Shown here piece after piece: positions 8,618 to 51,884 of a stretch of 53,170 nucleotides of DNA. The stretch is from Chitinispirillales bacterium. GTDB lineage: Bacteria; Fibrobacterota; Chitinivibrionia; Chitinivibrionales; Chitinispirillaceae. Within the stretch, counting starts at the first letter, position 1. Every line of letters starts with the position of its first letter. The stretch lies in assembly GCA_031254105.1 (NCBI GenBank), contig JAIRVB010000030.1, forward strand, positions 1 to 53,170, read 5' to 3'. Below the pieces are notes generated by a model. The model had not been told where the DNA came from. It was given only the letters and a program-made list of their open reading frames with translations, and did no database searches. Both the position numbers and the translations under genes were made by a program.

Positions 8618-9435
8618 ATGTCTGATATTATAAAATTACCGGAATATCGTGACTGGCTGCGCGATTTGAAAGAGCAGATCAAAAAGGGGCAGATAAAAGC
8701 CGCTCTTTCAGTGAACAGTCAAATGATTATGCTCTATTGGGATTTAGGCAGGCAGATTGTCGAAAAGCAGGAGGAAGCCAAGTGGGGTAGTGGCTTTATA
8801 GAGCAACTGAGCAGAGATTTGAAGAAAGAATTTCCTGAAATGACTGGATTTTCTCGGGCTAACTTGTTCAGAATCAAGAAGTTTTATAAATTTTATTCAT
8901 CTATTTTACAAGGCTCCGAATTTGTCGCACAACCTGTGCGACAATTAGAAAATAACGGTTCTGAATTTGTCGCACAACCTGTGCGACAATTAGAAAATAA
9001 TGGTTCTGAATTTGTCGCACAACCTGTGCGACAATTAGAAAATAGCGGCTTTGAATTTGTTGAACAAGATGCGGAACAGATTCAAGCGTCTGATATAAAA
9101 TTGAAACAACTTGTTCAACAAGCAGCCTTAATTCCCTGGGGACACAATGTATGCATTATTGAAAAAGTCAAAGATGTAAATCAAGCCCTTTTCTACATCA
9201 CCAAAGCTATAAAAAACAATTGGAGCCGCTCAGTACTTGAATATTAAATTGAGACAGGTCTCTACAACCGGCAGGGAAAAGCTGTTACGAACTTCAGCCA
9301 AACGCTGCCTCCACCGCAAAGCGATTTAGCTAATGAATTGATGAAAGACCCCTATAATTTCGATTTTCTGCGCTTATCGGAAAAAGTGAAGGAAACCGAT
9401 CTCGAAAATGGGCTCATACAGCATATTACGCAATT
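8618..9435 (+). pseudogene. DUF1016 (YhcG-like) PD-(D/E)XK nuclease gene: stop codon and lost C-terminus
   Basis: The first 209 codons encode the N-terminal DUF1016 region (RDWLRDLKEQIKKGQIKAALSVN, YWDLGRQIVEKQ, LIPWGHNVCIIEKV). A TAA at 9245-9247 then interrupts the frame. Reading continues in the same frame with family sequence (IETGLYNRQGKAVTNF, LPPPQSDLANELMKDPYNFDFL, GLIQHITQFL), so a single CAA-to-TAA change explains the stop. Homology ends near 9435, before the PD-(D/E)XK catalytic core that should carry the nuclease residues. The gene is thus both stopped and truncated. DUF1016 proteins are usually tied to restriction-modification and mobile islands. The linker contains 45-bp tandem repeats, listed separately. 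Confidence 0.85.
8912..9067 (+). repeat. 45-bp tandem repeats, each with a 10-bp perfect palindrome
   Basis: Three near-identical 45-bp units (8912-8956, 8957-9001, 9002-9046) and a partial fourth encode the 15-residue repeat SEFVAQPVRQLENNG. Each full unit holds TTGTCGCACA-ACC-TGTGCGACAA, a perfect inverted repeat (first copy 8922-8944, next copies at +45 and +90). The palindromes could form three hairpins in the mRNA or serve as binding sites. Confidence 0.9.
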
Positions 9436-20065: not shown

Positions 20066-20076
20066 TACATAAAAAC

Positions 20077-20504
20077 GGACGGAAAGGATCTGTAAGCCGG
20101 GTTCTGTCTGTCTCCAAAAGAGAGAGGCAGCCATTTGTCTGGCCCCAAAAGACGCGCGTCTTTGAAGCGTTGAGCGGCCTACCCGGGGAGATGAGAGCGG
20201 AACCACTCCCTCCCCGTAAAGGGGAACTCCGCCTGCTTGGCCTTGCACCGGATAGGGTTTGCCGGCTCCCGCGGCTTTGCGGGACGGTGGGCTCTTACCC
20301 CACCCTTTCACATCTCACCCCATTTGGTAAGGGCGCGCTTGCGCGCGCACGTTATCCAAAGAGAGCGGTCTTCTCTCTGCGGCACTTTCCGTACCCTTAC
20401 GGGCCCCCCTCTAACAGGGTATCCTGTCCTGCGGTGCCCGGACTTTCCTCTGCAAGCATACACAATTTCTTGTGCGTTTACAGCGGCTGCCCGATCCTCC
20501 GTCC
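20077..20504 (-). ncRNA. rnpB: RNase P RNA (catalytic subunit)
   Basis: This is the ribozyme that trims tRNA 5' leaders. The minus strand shows AGGAAAGTCCGGGC (20436-20449) for the conserved P4 5' strand and ACAGAACCCGGCTTACAG (20090-20107) at the 3' side. P1 closes the molecule by pairing GGACGG at the 5' end (20499-20504) with CCGTCC at the 3' end (20077-20082), with a further GGATC/GATCC. The size of about 428 nt and the conserved core fit a bacterial type A RNA. Protein-like open frames on both strands here are artefacts of its GC-rich sequence. Confidence 0.95.
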
Positions 20505-44977: not shown

Positions 44978-45050
44978 CTTGATTTTGCTGCTGAATTTGA
45001 TAGTTTAAAGGGTGGTTATTTTCTCATTAATTTAAAGTAATAAATGACGG

Positions 45051-45293
45051 TATGAAGGTGGGATTTTTTTCGTATATTGGAGAAAAACAGAAGGGCGTAA
45101 TACCTACGAGGTCGATTTTATTTTTCAATATAAAGGAAAAATACTCGCTATGAAGGTAAAAAGCGGAACCACCAAAATAAAGAGCTTCGCGAAATTCAAA
45201 GAGCGGTTTCCGGATGCCATGATATTAATAATAGGCAAAGCTGGGATTCCATGGCAGGAGTTTATCGCGGGGAAAATTGAACATCTGTTTTGA
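45051..45293 (+). pseudogene. C-terminal remnant of a DUF4143 AAA+ ATPase gene
   Basis: The frame FFVYWRKTEGRNTYEVDFIFQ, then KGKILAMKVKSGTTKIKSFAKFKERFPDA and an ending at the TGA 45291-45293, matches the tail of ATP-binding proteins with DUF4143, a PD-(D/E)XK-like domain (EVDF and KVKSG). The ATPase part and start are absent. It marks the left border of the CRISPR-Cas locus and suggests a deletion or insertion there. Confidence 0.7.
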
Positions 45294-45315
45294 GATGTGG
45301 AGAAAAGTTTTGTAT

Positions 45316-45403
45316 TGAGTAAAAGTTTCAGCCTGTCTGAGTAATCCTTGCAATTTTATTGAGTAAATATTGTAAATGTATTGAGTAAAACTTATATTCT
45401 ATA
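45316..45403 (+). promoter_or_regulatory. Four 22-bp iterons before cas9
   Basis: TGAGTAA occurs at 45316, 45338, 45360 and 45382, exactly 22 bp apart, each opening a 22-bp unit; three of the four are preceded by TAT. A further TATTGAGT is at 45453. TATAAA at 45402-45407 with TTGAGT of the last unit could be the cas9 promoter, so a protein bound to the units would touch it. Strict phasing on one DNA face is typical of cooperative operator or plasmid-origin iterons. Confidence 0.75.
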
Positions 45404-45500
45404 TAAAAGTACCTTTTTTAGAATCGATACGGTTATTTACTTTGTAAATATATATTGAGTATTTTTTGCGGATATTCATCAGGAAGTGAGGCCGGTAGTT

Positions 45501-48500
45501 ATGAAAAAAATATTAGGATTGGATTTGGGGACTAATAGTATTGGGTGGGCGTTGATCAATGAGGCTGAAAACAGTAATGAAAAATCATCAATCGTCAAGC
45601 TTGGCGTACGGGTAAATCCGCTGACTGTTGATGAGCAGCAGAACTTTGAAAAAGGAAAGAGCATTACCACCAATGCTGACCGTACTCTCAAACGCAGTAT
45701 GCGCCGAAATCTGCAAAGATATAAACTCCGTCGCGCAAATTTGATTGAAATTTTAAAAAAACGAGATTTCATTTCGGATGAAACGGTTCTATCAGAAAAT
45801 GGCAACCGTACAACATTTGAAACATATCGGTTGAGAGCCAAAGCCGCTACAGAAGAAATATCATTAGAGCAGTTTGCACGCGTATTGCTGATGATTAATA
45901 AAAAGCGCGGCTACAAAAGCAGCCGCAAGGGAAAAAATAAAGAAGAAGATGGAGCTTTAATTGATGGGATGGAGATTGCTAAAAAATTGTCCCATGATAA
46001 ACTCACACCCGGACAGTATTGTTTACAACTGTTAGAAAATGGGAAAAAAAGTCTTCCTGATGATTTTTACCGTTCTGATTTACAGACTGAATTTGATAGA
46101 ATTTGGACAAAGCAAAAAGAATTTTATCCTGAAATTCTTACTGATAAACTTAAAGATAATTTAAAAGGAAAAAATGAAAAAGCAACTTGGGCGATTTGCA
46201 AAGAGCCGTTTGACATAGTTGGTGTAGCGCGGGAAACCAAGGGCGATGAACAGAAGAAAGAGAATTATATCTGGCGTGTTAAAGCTCTTGCAGAAAAAAT
46301 GTATTTGGAAAGTTTAGCTGTCGTTTTACAAAAAGTTAATGCTCAAATCAGCGGTTCGAGCGGCTATTTGGGAAATATCAGTGATAAAAGTAAAGAACTG
46401 TTTTTCAAAAGATTGACAGTTGGTCAATATCAAATGGATATTTTAGATAAAAATCCCAATGCAAGCTTGAAAAATATGATTTTTTACCGTCAGGATTATT
46501 TAGACGAGTTTAACAGAATTTGGGAAACGCAAGCGAAATTTCATAAGGAACTAACCGATGAGTTAAAACATGAAATTCGTGATGTGGTAATTTTCTACCA
46601 GCGTCGCCTGAAAAGTCAAAAAGGTTTGATCAGTTTTTGCGAATTTGAAAGCAGGCGAATAGAAGTGGAAGTTGAGGGGAAAAAGAAAACCGTAACAACA
46701 GGAAACCGTGTTGCTCCTCGTTCATCCCCTCTATTTCAGGAGTTCAAAATCTGGCAGGTTTTAAACAATATTGAAATTGCCGATAAAAGTACAGGCGAGG
46801 TAATGGCGCTTGATTTGGACGAAAAGAAAAAACTATTCGCAAAATTACAAATCGCAGAAAAATTAACACCAAAGGAAGCATTGGAAACATTATTTGAAAA
46901 GAAAGCAAAAAATTATGAACTGCTGAATTACAAAGAGAAAATAGAGGGCAATAGAACCAGAGCAAAAATTTGTGAGGTTTTATGTGAGACCTTAACGAAT
47001 GAAAAATTAAATGAGCTCTGGCATTTGCTTTATTCCTGGGAGGGTGAAAATGATGACCTTTCAAAAAAACTAATCCTCAAATATGGTTGTTCAGAAGATA
47101 TAGCTAAAAAACTGTCAAATATAACGCTTAGTGACGATTATGGTTCTTTAAGTTCAAAGGCGATAAAAAAGATATTGCCGTATTTAGAGCAAGGTAAACA
47201 GTATGATAAAGCTTGTGAACTTGCCGGTTACAGGCATTCGAAGTCATCGTTGACTAAGGAGGAAATTGAAAACAAAGTATTGAAAGATAAGTTGAAAGTT
47301 CTCCCCAAAAATTCTTTACGCAATCCTGTGGTTGAAAAAATTCTTAATCAGATGGTTCATGTAGTCAATGGAATTATTGATGCCTATGGAAAGCCTGATG
47401 AAATACGTATCGAATTGGCGCGGGAACTGAAGAAAACCGCAAAACAGCGTGAAGAATTAACAAAATCCATAGCCGATACAACAAAATTGCACGAACACTA
47501 TAAAGAAAAAGTTTTATCAAAAGCGCCCTTTAATCTTCCATATATAAGCCGTGCAGACATAATTCGCTACAAACTTTACGAAGAATTGAAAGACAACGGA
47601 TATAAGACACTATACTCCAACACTTACATTTCGCAGGAAGATTTATTTAGCGGAAAATTTGATGTTGAACATATCATTCCGCAATCCCGATTGTTTGACG
47701 ATTCTTTTTCAAATAAAACATTAGAATTAAAGGATATAAATATTGAAAAAGGAAGCCGGACTGCGCACGATTTTGTAAAAGAAAAATATGGCGAAAGCGA
47801 AAATGATAATTCTCTTGATTCGTATCTGAAAAGAATCGAAAAATTGTACAAGGATGGGAAAATTACTCGTGCTAAATACAATAAACTCAAAATGAGCGAA
47901 GATAAGATTCCCGACGGCTTTATCAATCGTGATTTAGCAAACACTCAGTATATTACCAAAAAAGCCAAAGAAATGCTTGAGGATTTGGTAAAAGAATCCG
48001 TTGTTTGTACGACCGGTTCAATTACAGACCGGTTGCGCGAAGATTGGCAGTTAGTGGATGTAATGCAAGAATTGAATTGGGATAAATATAACACACTCGG
48101 ACTGACCTACTACGAAGAAAATCGCGATGGCAAAAAACTGAAACGTATTAAAGATTGGACAAAGCGTAACGATCACCGACATCATGCAATGGACGCTTTG
48201 ACTGTCGCATTTACAAAACGAAATATAGTTCAATATCTAAATAGTTTAAATGCAAGAAATGATAAAAGCTCAACTACTTATGGAATTGAGCAGAACGAAC
48301 TTTATCGTAATGACAAAAACAAATTGTTGTTCAAACCACCTTTTGTTTTAGATGAATTTAGAAGCGAAGTCAAAAAATATTTAGAAAATACACTGATTTC
48401 CATAAAGGCAAAAAATAAAGTTGTTACGCAAAATGTAAATACTACGCAAAAATCTGGCGGAACAAAGAAAAAGGTTCAGCAAACACCGCGCGGGCAGTTA

Positions 48501-49526
48501 CATTTGGAAACGGTTTACGGCAGCTGTAAAAAAATCGTAATCAATGAAGAGCCTGTAAATGCAAAATTCGATGAAATCAAAATTTTGACAGTAACAAAAC
48601 CTGCGTACAGAGAAGCCCTGTTGAGACGGTTGCGTGAAAACGGAAATGACCCGAAGAAAGCATTTACCGGGAAAAATAGTTTGAGTAAAAATCCGGTTTG
48701 GCTGGACGAATTGCACACGCAGCAAGTACCGGAAAAGGTGAAAACGTCTTCATTTGAAACCGTTTATACTATCCGTAAACAAGTATCTCATGATTTGAAT
48801 ATTGACAAGGTGATTGATGATAAGGTTAAACTGATATTGAACAAACGGCTGCAGGAATTCGGCGGTGATGCAAAAAAAGCATTCGCAAATATTGACGAAA
48901 AACCGATTTGGCTAAATGAAAAGAAGGGAATCTCAATAAAACGTGTAACGATTTCCGGAGTCAGTAATGCCGAAAGTTTGCATCATAAGCGTGATAAGGA
49001 TGGCAATTTTATTTTAGATGAAAACGGCAGTAAGCAGTCTGTTGATTTTGTAAATACCGGAAATAACCACCATGTAGCTGTTTACCGTGATGCGGAAGGC
49101 AATTTACAGGAAAAAGTTATATCATTTTTTGAAGCGGTTGAACGTCGGAACAAGGGTTTGCCGATTATTGATAAAAGTTACAAAAAAGAGGATGACTGGC
49201 AGTTCCTTTTTAGTATGAAACAGAACGAATATTTTGTGTTTCCGAATGAGGAGACGGGTTTTAATCCGAAAGATACTGATTTACTTAATTCTGACAATTA
49301 CGCTTTGATTAGTCAGAATTTGTTTAGGGTGCAGAAAATATCTTCAAAAAACTATCTTTTTAATCACCATTTGGAAACAAAAGCAATAACGGGTGATGAT
49401 TTGAAAAACAAAAAGCAATTATCTAAAATAGCTTATAACTTCATTCAAAGTCTTCCACCGATTGCAAACATTGTCAAAGTTCGCATCGATCACATCGGCC
49501 AAATTGTATCGGTTGGTGAGTACTAA
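45501..49526 (+). CDS. cas9: Type II-C CRISPR effector nuclease Cas9
   Basis: Cas9 cleaves DNA matched by a crRNA:tracrRNA guide. From the ATG at 45501 it has 1341 residues (a GTG at 45486 is also in frame). RuvC-I is ILGLDLGTNSIGWAL (Asp8). The Arg-rich bridge helix is TLKRSMRRNLQRYKLRR. RuvC-II is IRIELAREL (near 634-642). The HNH motif is FDVEHIIPQS (His724). RuvC-III is DHRHHAMDAL (His895, Asp898). All catalytic residues are present. VAPRSSPLFQEFKIWQ resembles Bacteroidetes II-C enzymes, which also run longer than the usual 1000-1100. Two related motifs (KKAF...NPVWLDE near 1050-1071 and KKAF...KPIWLNE near 1122-1142) sit in the PAM-interacting end. cas1 starts directly after the stop. 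Confidence 0.97.
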   Translation: MKKILGLDLGTNSIGWALINEAENSNEKSSIVKLGVRVNPLTVDEQQNFEKGKSITTNADRTLKRSMRRNLQRYKLRRANLIEILKKRDFISDETVLSENGNRTTFETYRLRAKAATEEISLEQFARVLLMINKKRGYKSSRKGKNKEEDGALIDGMEIAKKLSHDKLTPGQYCLQLLENGKKSLPDDFYRSDLQTEFDRIWTKQKEFYPEILTDKLKDNLKGKNEKATWAICKEPFDIVGVARETKGDEQKKENYIWRVKALAEKMYLESLAVVLQKVNAQISGSSGYLGNISDKSKELFFKRLTVGQYQMDILDKNPNASLKNMIFYRQDYLDEFNRIWETQAKFHKELTDELKHEIRDVVIFYQRRLKSQKGLISFCEFESRRIEVEVEGKKKTVTTGNRVAPRSSPLFQEFKIWQVLNNIEIADKSTGEVMALDLDEKKKLFAKLQIAEKLTPKEALETLFEKKAKNYELLNYKEKIEGNRTRAKICEVLCETLTNEKLNELWHLLYSWEGENDDLSKKLILKYGCSEDIAKKLSNITLSDDYGSLSSKAIKKILPYLEQGKQYDKACELAGYRHSKSSLTKEEIENKVLKDKLKVLPKNSLRNPVVEKILNQMVHVVNGIIDAYGKPDEIRIELARELKKTAKQREELTKSIADTTKLHEHYKEKVLSKAPFNLPYISRADIIRYKLYEELKDNGYKTLYSNTYISQEDLFSGKFDVEHIIPQSRLFDDSFSNKTLELKDINIEKGSRTAHDFVKEKYGESENDNSLDSYLKRIEKLYKDGKITRAKYNKLKMSEDKIPDGFINRDLANTQYITKKAKEMLEDLVKESVVCTTGSITDRLREDWQLVDVMQELNWDKYNTLGLTYYEENRDGKKLKRIKDWTKRNDHRHHAMDALTVAFTKRNIVQYLNSLNARNDKSSTTYGIEQNELYRNDKNKLLFKPPFVLDEFRSEVKKYLENTLISIKAKNKVVTQNVNTTQKSGGTKKKVQQTPRGQLHLETVYGSCKKIVINEEPVNAKFDEIKILTVTKPAYREALLRRLRENGNDPKKAFTGKNSLSKNPVWLDELHTQQVPEKVKTSSFETVYTIRKQVSHDLNIDKVIDDKVKLILNKRLQEFGGDAKKAFANIDEKPIWLNEKKGISIKRVTISGVSNAESLHHKRDKDGNFILDENGSKQSVDFVNTGNNHHVAVYRDAEGNLQEKVISFFEAVERRNKGLPIIDKSYKKEDDWQFLFSMKQNEYFVFPNEETGFNPKDTDLLNSDNYALISQNLFRVQKISSKNYLFNHHLETKAITGDDLKNKKQLSKIAYNFIQSLPPIANIVKVRIDHIGQIVSVGEY

Positions 49527-50459
49527 ATGATAAAACAGACCCTCTGTTTCGACAACCCCGCATATCTAAGCGCAAAAAACGAGCAATTAATAATAAAGAC
49601 ATCAGATGGGCGGGAAATTTCCCGCCCAATCGAGGACATCGGCGTTGTCATTTTAGACAATCCGCAGATCACAATAACACAAAATGCCGTTATAAAACTT
49701 TTGCAAAATAACGCTGCCGTAATTCACTGCAACGAAAAGCATCTGCCTGTTGGGATGCTGTTTAACTTAGATGGGAATACTTTACAAAGTCAAAAATTTA
49801 AAAGTCAGATTTCTGCAACCGAAGTACTAAAAAAGAATTTATGGCAGCAAACGGTTAAAGCAAAGATTCAAAATCAGGCGGCTGTTTTGAAAATTGCCGG
49901 AAAAGACAGCAGGCGGCTTGATCATTTAGCAAAAAACGTAAAGCCCGGCGACAGCGGAAACTACGAAGCGCAGGCGGCAATTTGGTACTGGAATTTAGTG
50001 TTTTCTGATTATGTTGAGAATTTTTCACGTATCTTTACAATCGGTGGTGTAGTCAACAATATGCTTGACTACGGTTACGCGGTTATGCGCGCGGCTGTGG
50101 CAAGAGCATTGACAGGTTCGGGACTTTTGCCAACGCTTGGAATTTTTCACAGGAATCAGTATAACGCATATTGCCTTGCCGATGACATTATGGAGCCGTT
50201 CCGCCCCTTTGTTGATTTGGCGGTTTTAGAAATCTTACAGGAAAATTCCATTGATAGTTTACAGGAGATAAACAGGGGAATCAAACAAAAATTACTGTTG
50301 GTTCTGCAATGCGACTGCTTTTTCAAGAAAGAAAAAAGTCCGTTATTAGTGGCTCTTACCCGCACAACAGCTTCGCTTTGCGCTTGCTTTGAAGGTAAAA
50401 AGCGTAAAATACTTTACCCGGAGATAAAACATGAACCTAAGCGCGATAAGTCAGTATAG
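49527..50459 (+). CDS. cas1: CRISPR integrase Cas1, type II
   Basis: Cas1, with Cas2, inserts new spacers next to the leader. The 310-residue protein has the beta domain (1-90) and the catalytic helical domain with Glu147 (NYEAQAAIWYW), His208 (GIFHRNQYNAY) and Asp219-Asp220 (LADDIMEPFRPFVD), the complete metal site. The sequence is of the type II kind. It starts immediately after the cas9 stop and overlaps cas2 by 29 bp. No cas4 or csn2 is present, which fits subtype II-C. Confidence 0.96.
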   Translation: MIKQTLCFDNPAYLSAKNEQLIIKTSDGREISRPIEDIGVVILDNPQITITQNAVIKLLQNNAAVIHCNEKHLPVGMLFNLDGNTLQSQKFKSQISATEVLKKNLWQQTVKAKIQNQAAVLKIAGKDSRRLDHLAKNVKPGDSGNYEAQAAIWYWNLVFSDYVENFSRIFTIGGVVNNMLDYGYAVMRAAVARALTGSGLLPTLGIFHRNQYNAYCLADDIMEPFRPFVDLAVLEILQENSIDSLQEINRGIKQKLLLVLQCDCFFKKEKSPLLVALTRTTASLCACFEGKKRKILYPEIKHEPKRDKSV

Positions 50460-50793
50460 GGTTATGTGGATTTTCGTGTTTTACGATTTACCGACAGAAA
50501 CAAAAATCCAACGAAAAAATCATTCAAAATTCCGTAAAAACTTAATTGAAGACGGCTTTAATATGTTTCAGTTCTCTGTATATTTTCGTCATTGCTCAAG
50601 CAAAGAAAATTTGGAGGTTCACGCTAACAGAGTAAAATCGTTCATGCCTGAAATGGGTAAAATCAGTATTGTAAATTTCACAGACAAACAGTTTGAAAGG
50701 ATGGAAGTTTTTTACGGCAAAAAGCTGCCCAGGAATCACAAAAAAACCAACGCCAAAGAATTACAGCCGCCAATGCAGTTAGAACTTTTTTGA
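50431..50793 (+). CDS. cas2: CRISPR adaptation nuclease Cas2
   Basis: The 120-residue ferredoxin-fold protein has the strand RVMWIFVFYDLPTETK with the metal-binding Asp19, and GFNMFQFSVYFRHCSSKENLEVH. The ATG at 50431 has GGAG upstream and gives the N-terminal extension typical of type II Cas2; an ATG at 50464 would also be possible. Its stop codon is part of the -35 box of the tracrRNA promoter. Confidence 0.95.
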   Translation: MNLSAISQYRVMWIFVFYDLPTETKIQRKNHSKFRKNLIEDGFNMFQFSVYFRHCSSKENLEVHANRVKSFMPEMGKISIVNFTDKQFERMEVFYGKKLPRNHKKTNAKELQPPMQLELF

Positions 50794-50824: not shown

Positions 50825-50903
50825 AATGCGAAAGCAATTCACAATAAGGATTATTCCGTTGTGAAAACATTAAGGGTGGGGGGTAACTCTCGCCCTTTTA
50901 TTT
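50825..50903 (+). ncRNA. tracrRNA
   Basis: The anti-repeat ATGCGAAAGCAATTCACAAT (50826-50845) pairs with the first 20 nt of the CRISPR repeat at 51837, with 19 Watson-Crick pairs and one G:U. A small nexus hairpin with GGA-TTAT-TCC (50848-50857) follows inside AAGGATTATTCCGTT, which resembles AAGGCTAGTCCGTT of the S. pyogenes tracrRNA. A terminator stem AAGGGTG/CGCCCTT (50872-50878 and 50891-50897) and a T-run (50895-50907) close it. The RNA would be about 80 nt and acts with Cas9 and crRNA. Confidence 0.88.
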
Positions 50904-50907
50904 TTTT
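50872..50907 (+). terminator. Rho-independent terminator of tracrRNA
   Basis: A 7-bp stem with a 12-nt G-rich loop is followed by TTTTATTTTTTT. It also forms the last hairpin of the tracrRNA. Confidence 0.8.
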
Positions 50908-51087
50908 AGCTGAAACTGCAAAATTTTATAGTTCCACGTTTTTCATCTCCTGTCTCTTTATATTTTCATTTTTATATTTTAGATAGTGTCAATGAAATTT
51001 CACTTTCGAGAGTTTGTAAATGATTAAAAAGCCTAAGGCATTATTTGCGGGTTGTTTAGTAAAACGGCGCGAATAGGGGCACGTCAT

Positions 51088-51741
51088 TTGACCGATAATA
51101 ATAAAACTTCGTTTAGTCTGCTTACTATGAAAGATGCTGCGCAAGCTGTGCCTGAAGGTATAAGCGCGAGATTAAAAACTTTCTGGGCAAAAGTAGTCAG
51201 CGGAAGAAGAAAATTAAATGGTAAGCATTCAATATGTATAGGCGAAATATCAGAAAAAGTTAAAAATGCTGTGTTTGACATATATGGAAAAAATGTTACA
51301 AGACAAACGATAACAATTGATGATATGAAACACATTTATTATCGGCATGGTAAAAATATTGCGAAAGAATTGGCCGATGGGCAGATTCCTGTAACCGAAG
51401 AAATTGTCGCTTTGATTCCGGATGTTTTAACAGATCCTGATCATATTAATTGCGGAGGAAAAACCAAAGGACAGGGATATGATACGATAGTAGTTTCAAA
51501 GGAATACGCAGATGGATGCGTTCACACGGTACATGCGGTCATAAACGATTCTACATTAAAAATTCACACATTGTACGTTTGGAATGAAGAGAAAGCAAAA
51601 AATAAGCGTTTGGATTGTGGAGAAGTCACCGACTCCCGACAGCTTAGGGCAACAATGCCCGATCCTCAAAATGAGGCGCCGTCCAATCCAAACGTTTACA
51701 TTAATAATATAACCAATTCTATCGAAAAAATCAATACCTAA
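51088..51741 (+). CDS. Predicted phage-type (PBECR-like) nuclease domain protein
   Basis: The core (IGEISEKVKNAVFDIYG, then DMKHIYYRHG, TEEIVALIPDVLTDPDHI, and the strands YDTIVVSKEYADG and VHTVHAVI...KIHTLYVWN) resembles the phage Barnase-EndoU-ColicinE5/D-RelE-like nucleases found at the end of phage head-morphogenesis and polyvalent proteins. I propose the TTG at 51088 with AGGGG upstream; a TTG at 51052 and an ATG at 51127 are alternatives. The opening NKTSFSLL looks like the linker of a longer protein, so this may be a detached C-terminal domain. It sits between the tracrRNA and the only CRISPR repeat. No immunity gene is recognised. The family assignment is by pattern only. Confidence 0.55.
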   Translation: MTDNNKTSFSLLTMKDAAQAVPEGISARLKTFWAKVVSGRRKLNGKHSICIGEISEKVKNAVFDIYGKNVTRQTITIDDMKHIYYRHGKNIAKELADGQIPVTEEIVALIPDVLTDPDHINCGGKTKGQGYDTIVVSKEYADGCVHTVHAVINDSTLKIHTLYVWNEEKAKNKRLDCGEVTDSRQLRATMPDPQNEAPSNPNVYINNITNSIEKINT

Positions 51742-51836: not shown

Positions 51837-51884
51837 GTTGTGAATTGCTTTCGCATTTTTCTATTTTAGGGTGATTCGCAACAG
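51837..51884 (+). CRISPR. Solitary 48-nt CRISPR repeat
   Basis: GTTGTGAATTGCTTTCGCAT opens a 48-nt unit ending ATTCGCAACAG. Its ends form a 9-bp inverted repeat (GTTGTGAAT/ATTCGCAAC). The length and GTTGTG start are those of Bacteroidetes type II-C repeats, and the first 20 nt pair with the tracrRNA. No second copy is found within 30-40 nt on either side or elsewhere in the window. A crRNA made here would use the 30 nt before the repeat (51807-51836) as guide. TATAAT lies at 51904-51909. Confidence 0.85.

Follow-up and report, generated by a model that had tools for sequence, protein, structure and literature searches.

In plasmid iterons, direct repeats lie about two helical turns apart and upstream of the gene for a DNA-binding Rep initiator. 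In a defence island, three 9-bp promoter repeats with a TAGCTA palindrome are bound by RptR, a small separate repressor, according to the accessible part of the report (PMC12255303). Direct repeats of the heptamer TAACTGA were described upstream of start codons in the Beggiatoaceae and in distant phyla, and in the available portion of that source no functional pattern is seen among the genes downstream of them (PMC4679880). The candidate phage-defence family PDC-S01 is described, in the sections of the source that were accessible, as having an ATPase plus PD-(D/E)XK architecture and as occurring 29,494 times in bacteria and 9,986 times in archaea (PMC12988326); the accessible part of another study reports it to be more frequent than any other single locus in rumen genomes (PMC13356809).

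The window analysed here, i.e., the whole stretch of 53,170 nucleotides, is the entire contig C55 of a Chitinispirillales genome (G000) and carries phased direct repeats directly upstream of cas9. We assign a probability of about 0.8 to the reading that its four units are the orphaned operator (iteron) array of a PDC-S01 cassette. The features of the locus are as follows.

45036 to 45293, plus strand: pseudogene, the 3' remnant of a gene for an AAA+/DUF4143 ATPase of the PDC-S01 type (residues about 317 to 402), with one internal TGA
45313 to 45334, plus strand: iteron unit 1, TATTGAGTAAAAGTTTCAGCCT
45335 to 45356, plus strand: iteron unit 2, GTCTGAGTAATCCTTGCAATTT
45357 to 45378, plus strand: iteron unit 3, TATTGAGTAAATATTGTAAATG
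45379 to 45400, plus strand: iteron unit 4, TATTGAGTAAAACTTATATTCT
45453 to 45476, plus strand: fifth site, possibly a degenerate promoter-proximal unit, 8 bp out of phase
45486 to 49526, plus strand: cas9, GTG start at 45486 as listed; TIGR01865, E=3.5e-163
49527 to 50459, plus strand: cas1, type II Cas1 by TIGR03639, E=1.9e-86
50431 to 50793, plus strand: cas2, in a row with cas9 and cas1
50825 to 50907, plus strand: probable tracrRNA, with a 20-nt anti-repeat AATGCGAAAGCAATTCACAA, a hairpin, and a strong terminal hairpin with a T run
51837 to 51882, plus strand: solitary CRISPR repeat of 46 nt, identical to the repeat of the array on contig C38

The earlier note had reported four TGAGTAA heptamers in strict 22-bp phase together with a fifth site, and both the coordinates and the spacing were confirmed. 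The heptamers start at 45316, 45338, 45360 and 45382, which is exact 22-bp phasing, while the fifth site, TATTGAGT, begins at 45453, 74 bp after 45379; this could be a promoter-proximal unit that has degenerated, as its likeness to the leader of G019 but not to that of G022 would allow, or a product of chance. The units share about 16 conserved bases, TATTGAGTAAAannTT, and are longer than the heptamer. The same note had asked whether four phased heptamers are to be expected in such AT-rich DNA. Using the criterion of a heptamer in at least four equally spaced copies at a spacing of 10-60 bp, none of the 5000 dinucleotide shuffles of 44978-45486 and none of the 200 shuffles of the whole window produced a heptamer in four equally spaced copies. 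The unshuffled window has heptamers in at least four equally spaced copies at two places, the array upstream of cas9 and a repeat at 8918-9067; the latter is a nearly perfect 45-bp tandem repeat of 3.3 copies that lies within or overlaps ORF 8618-9247. Across the host genome (3,684,628 bases in 56 contigs), the pattern TGAGTAA-N15-TGAGTAA gave three overlapping matches, all of them in this array, and the reversed control pattern gave none; a 33-base two-unit pattern that was allowed up to three mismatches matched at the same place only.

The array is adjoined directly on its 5' side by the remnant of an ATPase gene. In a tblastn search, the remnant (aligned over 45036-45290) was 61% identical to the intact ATPase of genome G019 (E=5.8e-29), and at the nucleotide level it was 68-70% identical to both G019 and G022 (blastn). 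When the intergenic region was compared by blastn with 24 genomes of the family, two pieces were found in G019 and G022: positions 45070-45293 of the window corresponded to the 3' part of the gene, and the iteron region corresponded to DNA lying about 1 kb further upstream. Taken together, the tblastn match of the remnant and the blastn match of the iterons indicate that the window holds a broken ATPase gene and an array of its family. Only about the last 86 residues of the ATPase are left in the window, and the intact ATPase and nuclease motifs are absent; it is a relic of a PDC-S01 ATPase and not a member of the family. The intact relatives encode ATPases of 402-414 amino acids with AAA_14 and DUF4143 domains. 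The one in G019 was classified by PADLOC as PDC-S01 (PDLC04791, E=5e-155) and has DUF4143 (E=4e-24) and AAA_14 (E=2e-18) domains. EVD and EVKS are invariant in the ATPase alignment, and we read them as its putative PD-(D/E)XK motif.

The arrays of these relatives were found where the gene is intact. In G019, eight TGAGTA cores and variant units stand directly before the ATPase start codon in a 22-bp phase that is interrupted once; in G022, the same position holds four units in a 22-bp phase, three with an exact TGAGTA core and the fourth a variant, and 22-bp units directly precede the intact ATPase gene of G029 as well. Of 167 genomes from the phylum, 17 have the ATPase subfamily according to a profile search and four have the exact paired core, namely the host genome itself (G000), G019, G063 and G160. 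The paired core of both G063 and G160 adjoins an ATPase of the same subfamily, which is 5'-truncated in G063. Reading the DNA upstream of the ATPase at 16 loci showed phased units about 22 bp apart at most of them, with no clear array at L343 and L310, and the core of the unit varied with the gene: TTGAGTAA, ACTCA..TATACTGAGTA, TTGAACATTTTT or TTGAGAATTTT. Homologues that are 38-47% identical extend the observation to plasmids of other phyla. A Bacteroides finegoldii plasmid homologue (WP_022276062.1) has units at -62, -40 and -18, and the Collinsella aerofaciens plasmid NZ_OY725718.1 (L304:923-2300) has palindromic units in a 22-bp phase both upstream of the ATPase gene and right after its stop codon; the identity of the Bacteroides and Collinsella homologues falls at 38-43%. 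The spacing is also found, but with different cores, on a second B. finegoldii plasmid, on a scaffold from a phage collection and, next to a more distant homologue, on Rhizobium etli p42f. The array and the ATPase thus co-occur both in relatives and on plasmids from other phyla. In viral contigs, a search with a single ATPase sequence gave no matches, and one with an alignment gave 22 loci, two of them in the subfamily; the paired TTGAGTAA had at least 120 matches there, a number that we judge plausible for chance in AT-rich DNA.

This distribution bears on the idea that the array is a neutral minisatellite, i.e., a 22-bp tandem duplication that was expanded by slippage and then diverged, with no function in binding. 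Tandem Repeats Finder did report a period-22 array with 80% matches at this site, as such an origin would lead one to expect. However, both the core and the phase recur before homologous genes of other phyla, whose proteins are 38-47% identical, although the intervening bases vary, and the core differs from one ATPase clade to another at equal spacing. We therefore regard a minisatellite as very improbable. The origin of the array from a cassette of a PDC-S01-family ATPase, on the other hand, is in our opinion highly probable.

A maximum-likelihood tree of 20 ATPases showed that the motif classes group together across phyla. The Collinsella sequence and four genomes of the Fibrobacteraceae family f8 were joined at 100/100, and all of them have palindromes of the ACTCA or ACCCA type; G019, G022 and G029 were also joined at 100/100, and in their units TTGAGTAA precedes TTAC or a close variant of it. 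No single clade has TTGAGTAA to itself, since it is also present in other branches of the tree. Broadly, the motif follows the ATPase clade more than the host phylum. Such grouping suggests that the sites and the protein diverge together and, by extension, that the ATPase is the probable binder. A structure model was obtained for L309, a 44%-identical homologue (pLDDT 89.0, pTM 0.88), and its residues 1-288 resemble the archaeal ATPases 2qen (Z 16.9, rmsd 3.3, 261 aligned) and 2fna (Z 16.7). The model also scored against CED-4 (Z about 15) and archaeal ORC2 and ORC1 (Z about 14), with Z 14.3 for 1w5t (rmsd 3.6, 257 aligned) and Z 14.2 for the archaeal ORC1-DNA complex 2v1u (rmsd 7.3, 257 aligned). 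The best Foldseek match was ORC1 with DNA, at a TM of only about 0.3. The core of the ATPase may combine AAA+ and winged-helix parts in an archaeal ORC/STAND-like arrangement. A search by sequence gave no solved homologue, and the fold resemblance extends over residues 1-288, short of the C-terminal residues 320-395.

The regularity of the spacing was assessed with a periodicity test, in which the best ungapped self-match of the 160 bp upstream plus 12 bp, at shifts of 12-60, was compared with dinucleotide shuffles. The test set comprised 20 subfamily genes, seven of them loci from other collections, and G063, G066, G041 and G036 were left out because they have no 5' end. The best shift fell at 21-23 bp, a range that was chosen after the window had been seen, in 15 of the 20 genes and outside it in five; 13 of the 20 additionally had p<=0.05. 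The remaining seven, L334, L336, L339, L343, L310, L301 and L306, failed one or both criteria. Among 124 controls, 16 had p<=0.05, and two of the 124 did so at a shift of 21-23, one of these being the cas9 of the window. Fisher's test of 13/20 against 2/124 gave p=7e-12, a value that overstates independence since the subfamily genes are mutually related and the effective sample is smaller. Other DUF4143 genes (32 tested, after 32 of 64 loci had been dropped on account of an ORF or Walker motif that was unmatched by the regular expression, a short upstream region or duplication) had p<=0.05 in 11 cases, at shifts of 23, 32-34 and 44, and 21 were not significant. Most of the viral DUF4143 genes tested from outside the subfamily had no significant periodicity. 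For 16 plasmid genes with annotated starts, which were analysed with 170 bp upstream and some of which are shared with the subfamily or other DUF4143 sets, eight were significant (p<=0.05) at 22 or 23 bp, three at 32, 40 and 44, and five were not significant; of the 10 among these 16 that were new to the analysis, six had a 22- or 23-bp shift with p<=0.05. In the host genome, different phased repeats were seen, by eye or by the test, before the start codons of its own DUF4143 ATPase genes L255, L260 and L262 (about 22-23 bp), while L256 and L257 have their own repeats at about 33 bp and L266 has spaced palindromes.

Comparison of related genomes also bore on how the array and the gene are gained and lost. 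In G019, they sit in a gap of about 1640 bp between a histidine kinase gene, whose stop codon lies inside the first iteron, and a downstream stretch. An orthologous kinase and the same downstream stretch are found in G022:C58 and G023:C252 without the array and the ATPase, with gaps of about 265 and 62 bp, respectively. Within one lineage, therefore, the array and the gene are either both in place or both missing. The 62-bp gap of G023:C252 (L352, after 2559) contains AATAGTTACCAAT, which resembles half an iteron and may be a scar of excision or deletion. On plasmids, DUF4143-type ATP-binding genes were observed within a row of ABC-transporter genes in Thermus oshimai pTHEOS01 (L301) and between arabinose genes in Emticicia pEMTOL02 (L307), as an insertion would place them. 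Homology resumes just 3' of the ATPase on the Thermus plasmid. Exact insertion ends were sought on the Thermus and Rhizobium plasmids and rejected: the left flanks were unmatched, and hence there was no clean empty site.

Based on these observations, we propose that the cassette would consist of a single ATPase gene with an AAA+ part, a winged-helix region and a PD-(D/E)XK-like C-terminus (DUF4143), preceded directly before its start codon by gene-specific sites two helical turns (22 bp) apart. The winged-helix region would bind these phased sites cooperatively and on one face of the DNA, and the bound ATPase would control its own promoter, by analogy with the autorepressors of defence genes. 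Judged from the sequences, such self-binding and autoregulation has about an even chance of being correct. Gained and lost as a unit, the cassette would have landed here beside a CRISPR-Cas locus, after which the ATPase gene would have decayed to its 3' fragment while the DNA of the array stayed and now makes up much of the region before cas9. The order at this locus is remnant, array and cas9. The array thus lies on the 3' side of the remnant but on the 5' side of the ATPase gene in G019 and G022, which speaks against the proposed reading. This order would require either a tandem cassette from which a second ATPase was lost or a 3' array such as that of Collinsella.

The CRISPR-Cas locus itself has the parts of a type II system: cas9, a type II cas1, cas2, a probable tracrRNA and an array, the last on contig C38. 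The more likely start of cas9 is the ATG at 45501, MKKILGLDLGTNS, rather than the GTG at 45486. The first 20 bases of the probable tracrRNA pair with the CRISPR repeat, and its fold z-score was -4.41; another RNA of the window, the bacterial class A RNase P RNA, lies at 20075-20502 on the minus strand. The array of 13 repeats at C38:637-1593 has the same repeat as the solitary copy in the window. Because the last 119 bases of C55 are the first 119 of C38, the CRISPR array very likely lies on the same stretch of the chromosome. Genes separate the solitary repeat from the 13-repeat array, one of them spanning the contig end, and the arrangement looks like an insertion of DNA into the array or beside it. 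An ORF at 51052-51741, flanked by the tracrRNA and the solitary repeat, has a PBECR3 domain (phage-Barnase-EndoU-ColicinE5/D-RelE-like nuclease 3). The position of the phased units directly upstream of cas9 and the solitary repeat in the window might suggest an element related to CRISPR, such as the remains of a CRISPR array or a site through which Cas9 would regulate itself with a crRNA-like or long-tracrRNA guide; the 46-nt repeat is, however, unrelated to the array units, and we consider this the least credible of the explanations. Autoregulation of Cas9 by CRISPR RNA was rejected after a comparison of the promoter region with 12 spacers and with both flanks of the solitary repeat, in which the longest exact match was nine bases.

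The earlier note had suggested that the units might be operator sites for the dose control of cas9. As a conserved cas9 operator, this was not borne out. A survey of 80 related cas9 loci located the Cas9 start motif in 45 and left out 35 (that of G010 was not located), and phased TGAGTA units were found within 420 bp upstream at none of the 45 testable loci, one of which had a single TGAGTA; the array is thus not a feature of cas9. G038, G021, G046, G057 and G059 were also without a phased array upstream of cas9. The nearest named cas9, from a Candidatus Fibrimonadaceae MAG, is 72% identical, and the DNA directly upstream of the 72% identical cas9 of L004 is different from that of the window. 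In G001, the only other genome of the genus among those listed, argS and its neighbour are retained, and a different gene occupies the place of the ATPase remnant and the cas genes. What stands of the earlier description is that the phased array is real; its simplest reading is one of putative protein-binding sites that are foreign to cas9 and were trapped there.

A captured operator is a different matter, since an array of foreign origin might still serve as a binding platform or promoter element that sets the dose of cas9 through a host regulator or a distant PDC-S01 ATPase. The array occupies about half of the gap from the stop of the remnant to cas9, and any cas9 promoter has to be located within it or beside it. 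In spite of the broken ATPase gene, the left arms of the units are kept at 34/36 positions (124/135 in relatives), a degree of conservation that would also fit continued use before cas9; the right arms are kept at 12/24 positions compared with 65/90 in relatives (p=0.05). The leader at 45460-45500 resembles the ATPase leader of G019 to a degree that was reached by none of 5000 shuffles, and its score was matched by none of 44 other cas9 leaders, although the next reached 30 against 32. Compared with the leader of G022, however, its score was reached by 1287 of 5000 shuffles and by 20 of the 44 cas9 leaders. A promoter scan found one plus-strand site and three sites in all against 2.3 expected. 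With regard to a possible regulator, the host genome has 17 DUF4143 matches, but a profile search found no member of the subfamily in it at E<=1e-40, and the best match to the ATPase other than the remnant was 24% identical. Because the genome has no intact cognate ATPase, the array is orphaned before cas9. Considering also that no other testable cas9 has the array, we find a captured operator unlikely, and a present effect of the array on cas9 is equally doubtful. The array is probably an unoccupied relic.

The other suggestion of the earlier note was that a trapped plasmid-type origin had brought the CRISPR-Cas locus in. In form, 22-bp phased direct repeats in AT-rich DNA do resemble plasmid iterons. 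Nevertheless, a search for the Rep_3 initiator family gave no matches in the host genome (the control search was positive in two of 14 genomes), and the sole plasmid match of the DNA, at 13% coverage and E=0.5, was not meaningful. Moreover, an array of the same kind precedes a single-gene ATPase cassette in relatives. A plasmid origin is thus highly implausible, and the orphaned operator array of a PDC-S01 cassette remains our preferred reading.

A wider hypothesis, which we put forward tentatively, is that PDC-S01/DUF4143 ATPases, reported to be the fourth most common prokaryotic defence family, could be initiator-like, self-recognising genes. Each would have its own array at 22 (or 32-34/44) bp with a motif that diverges together with the protein, the array and the gene would move as one cassette, and the AAA+/winged-helix part would read the array. 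At this locus, the array would have become the promoter region of cas9 and placed CRISPR immunity under the operator of another defence gene. If this is true, the array would be a key to the regulation of PDC-S01, its self/non-self recognition or its spread. A gene-specific phased array before PDC-S01 genes offers a concrete and cheap handle on a candidate defence family and hints at how it may be controlled. It is also worth mentioning that arrays from lost cassettes can be mistaken for a promoter or origin belonging to a gene nearby, such as cas9. We found no published account of PDC-S01 genes with their own iterons in a search that covered few subscription papers and no preprints.

Compared with the systems described to date, the TAACTGA repeats of the Beggiatoaceae differ in the heptamer, and, as far as the accessible part of that report goes, in what lies downstream, which here is one ATPase family. 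The array resembles plasmid iterons in the spacing and position of its repeats, and the predicted fold of the ATPase may resemble that of archaeal ORC proteins. The difference is that here there are single-gene cassettes with no Rep_3 protein and no evidence of an origin. The intact relatives of the remnant belong to the PADLOC candidate PDC-S01 (AAA_14 and DUF4143), whereas the gene of the window is broken and has left the DNA of the array and a 3' fragment; the accessible parts of the PDC-S01 literature (PMC12988326, PMC13356809) do not mention upstream iterons. The likeness to RptR, as the available portion of its description presents it, is that the promoter of a defence gene contains direct repeats and that a locally encoded protein binds them, the binder being putative here. 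The arrays described in this study differ from that system in having a 22-bp unit and a gene-specific motif, and their likely, putative binder is the ATPase itself.
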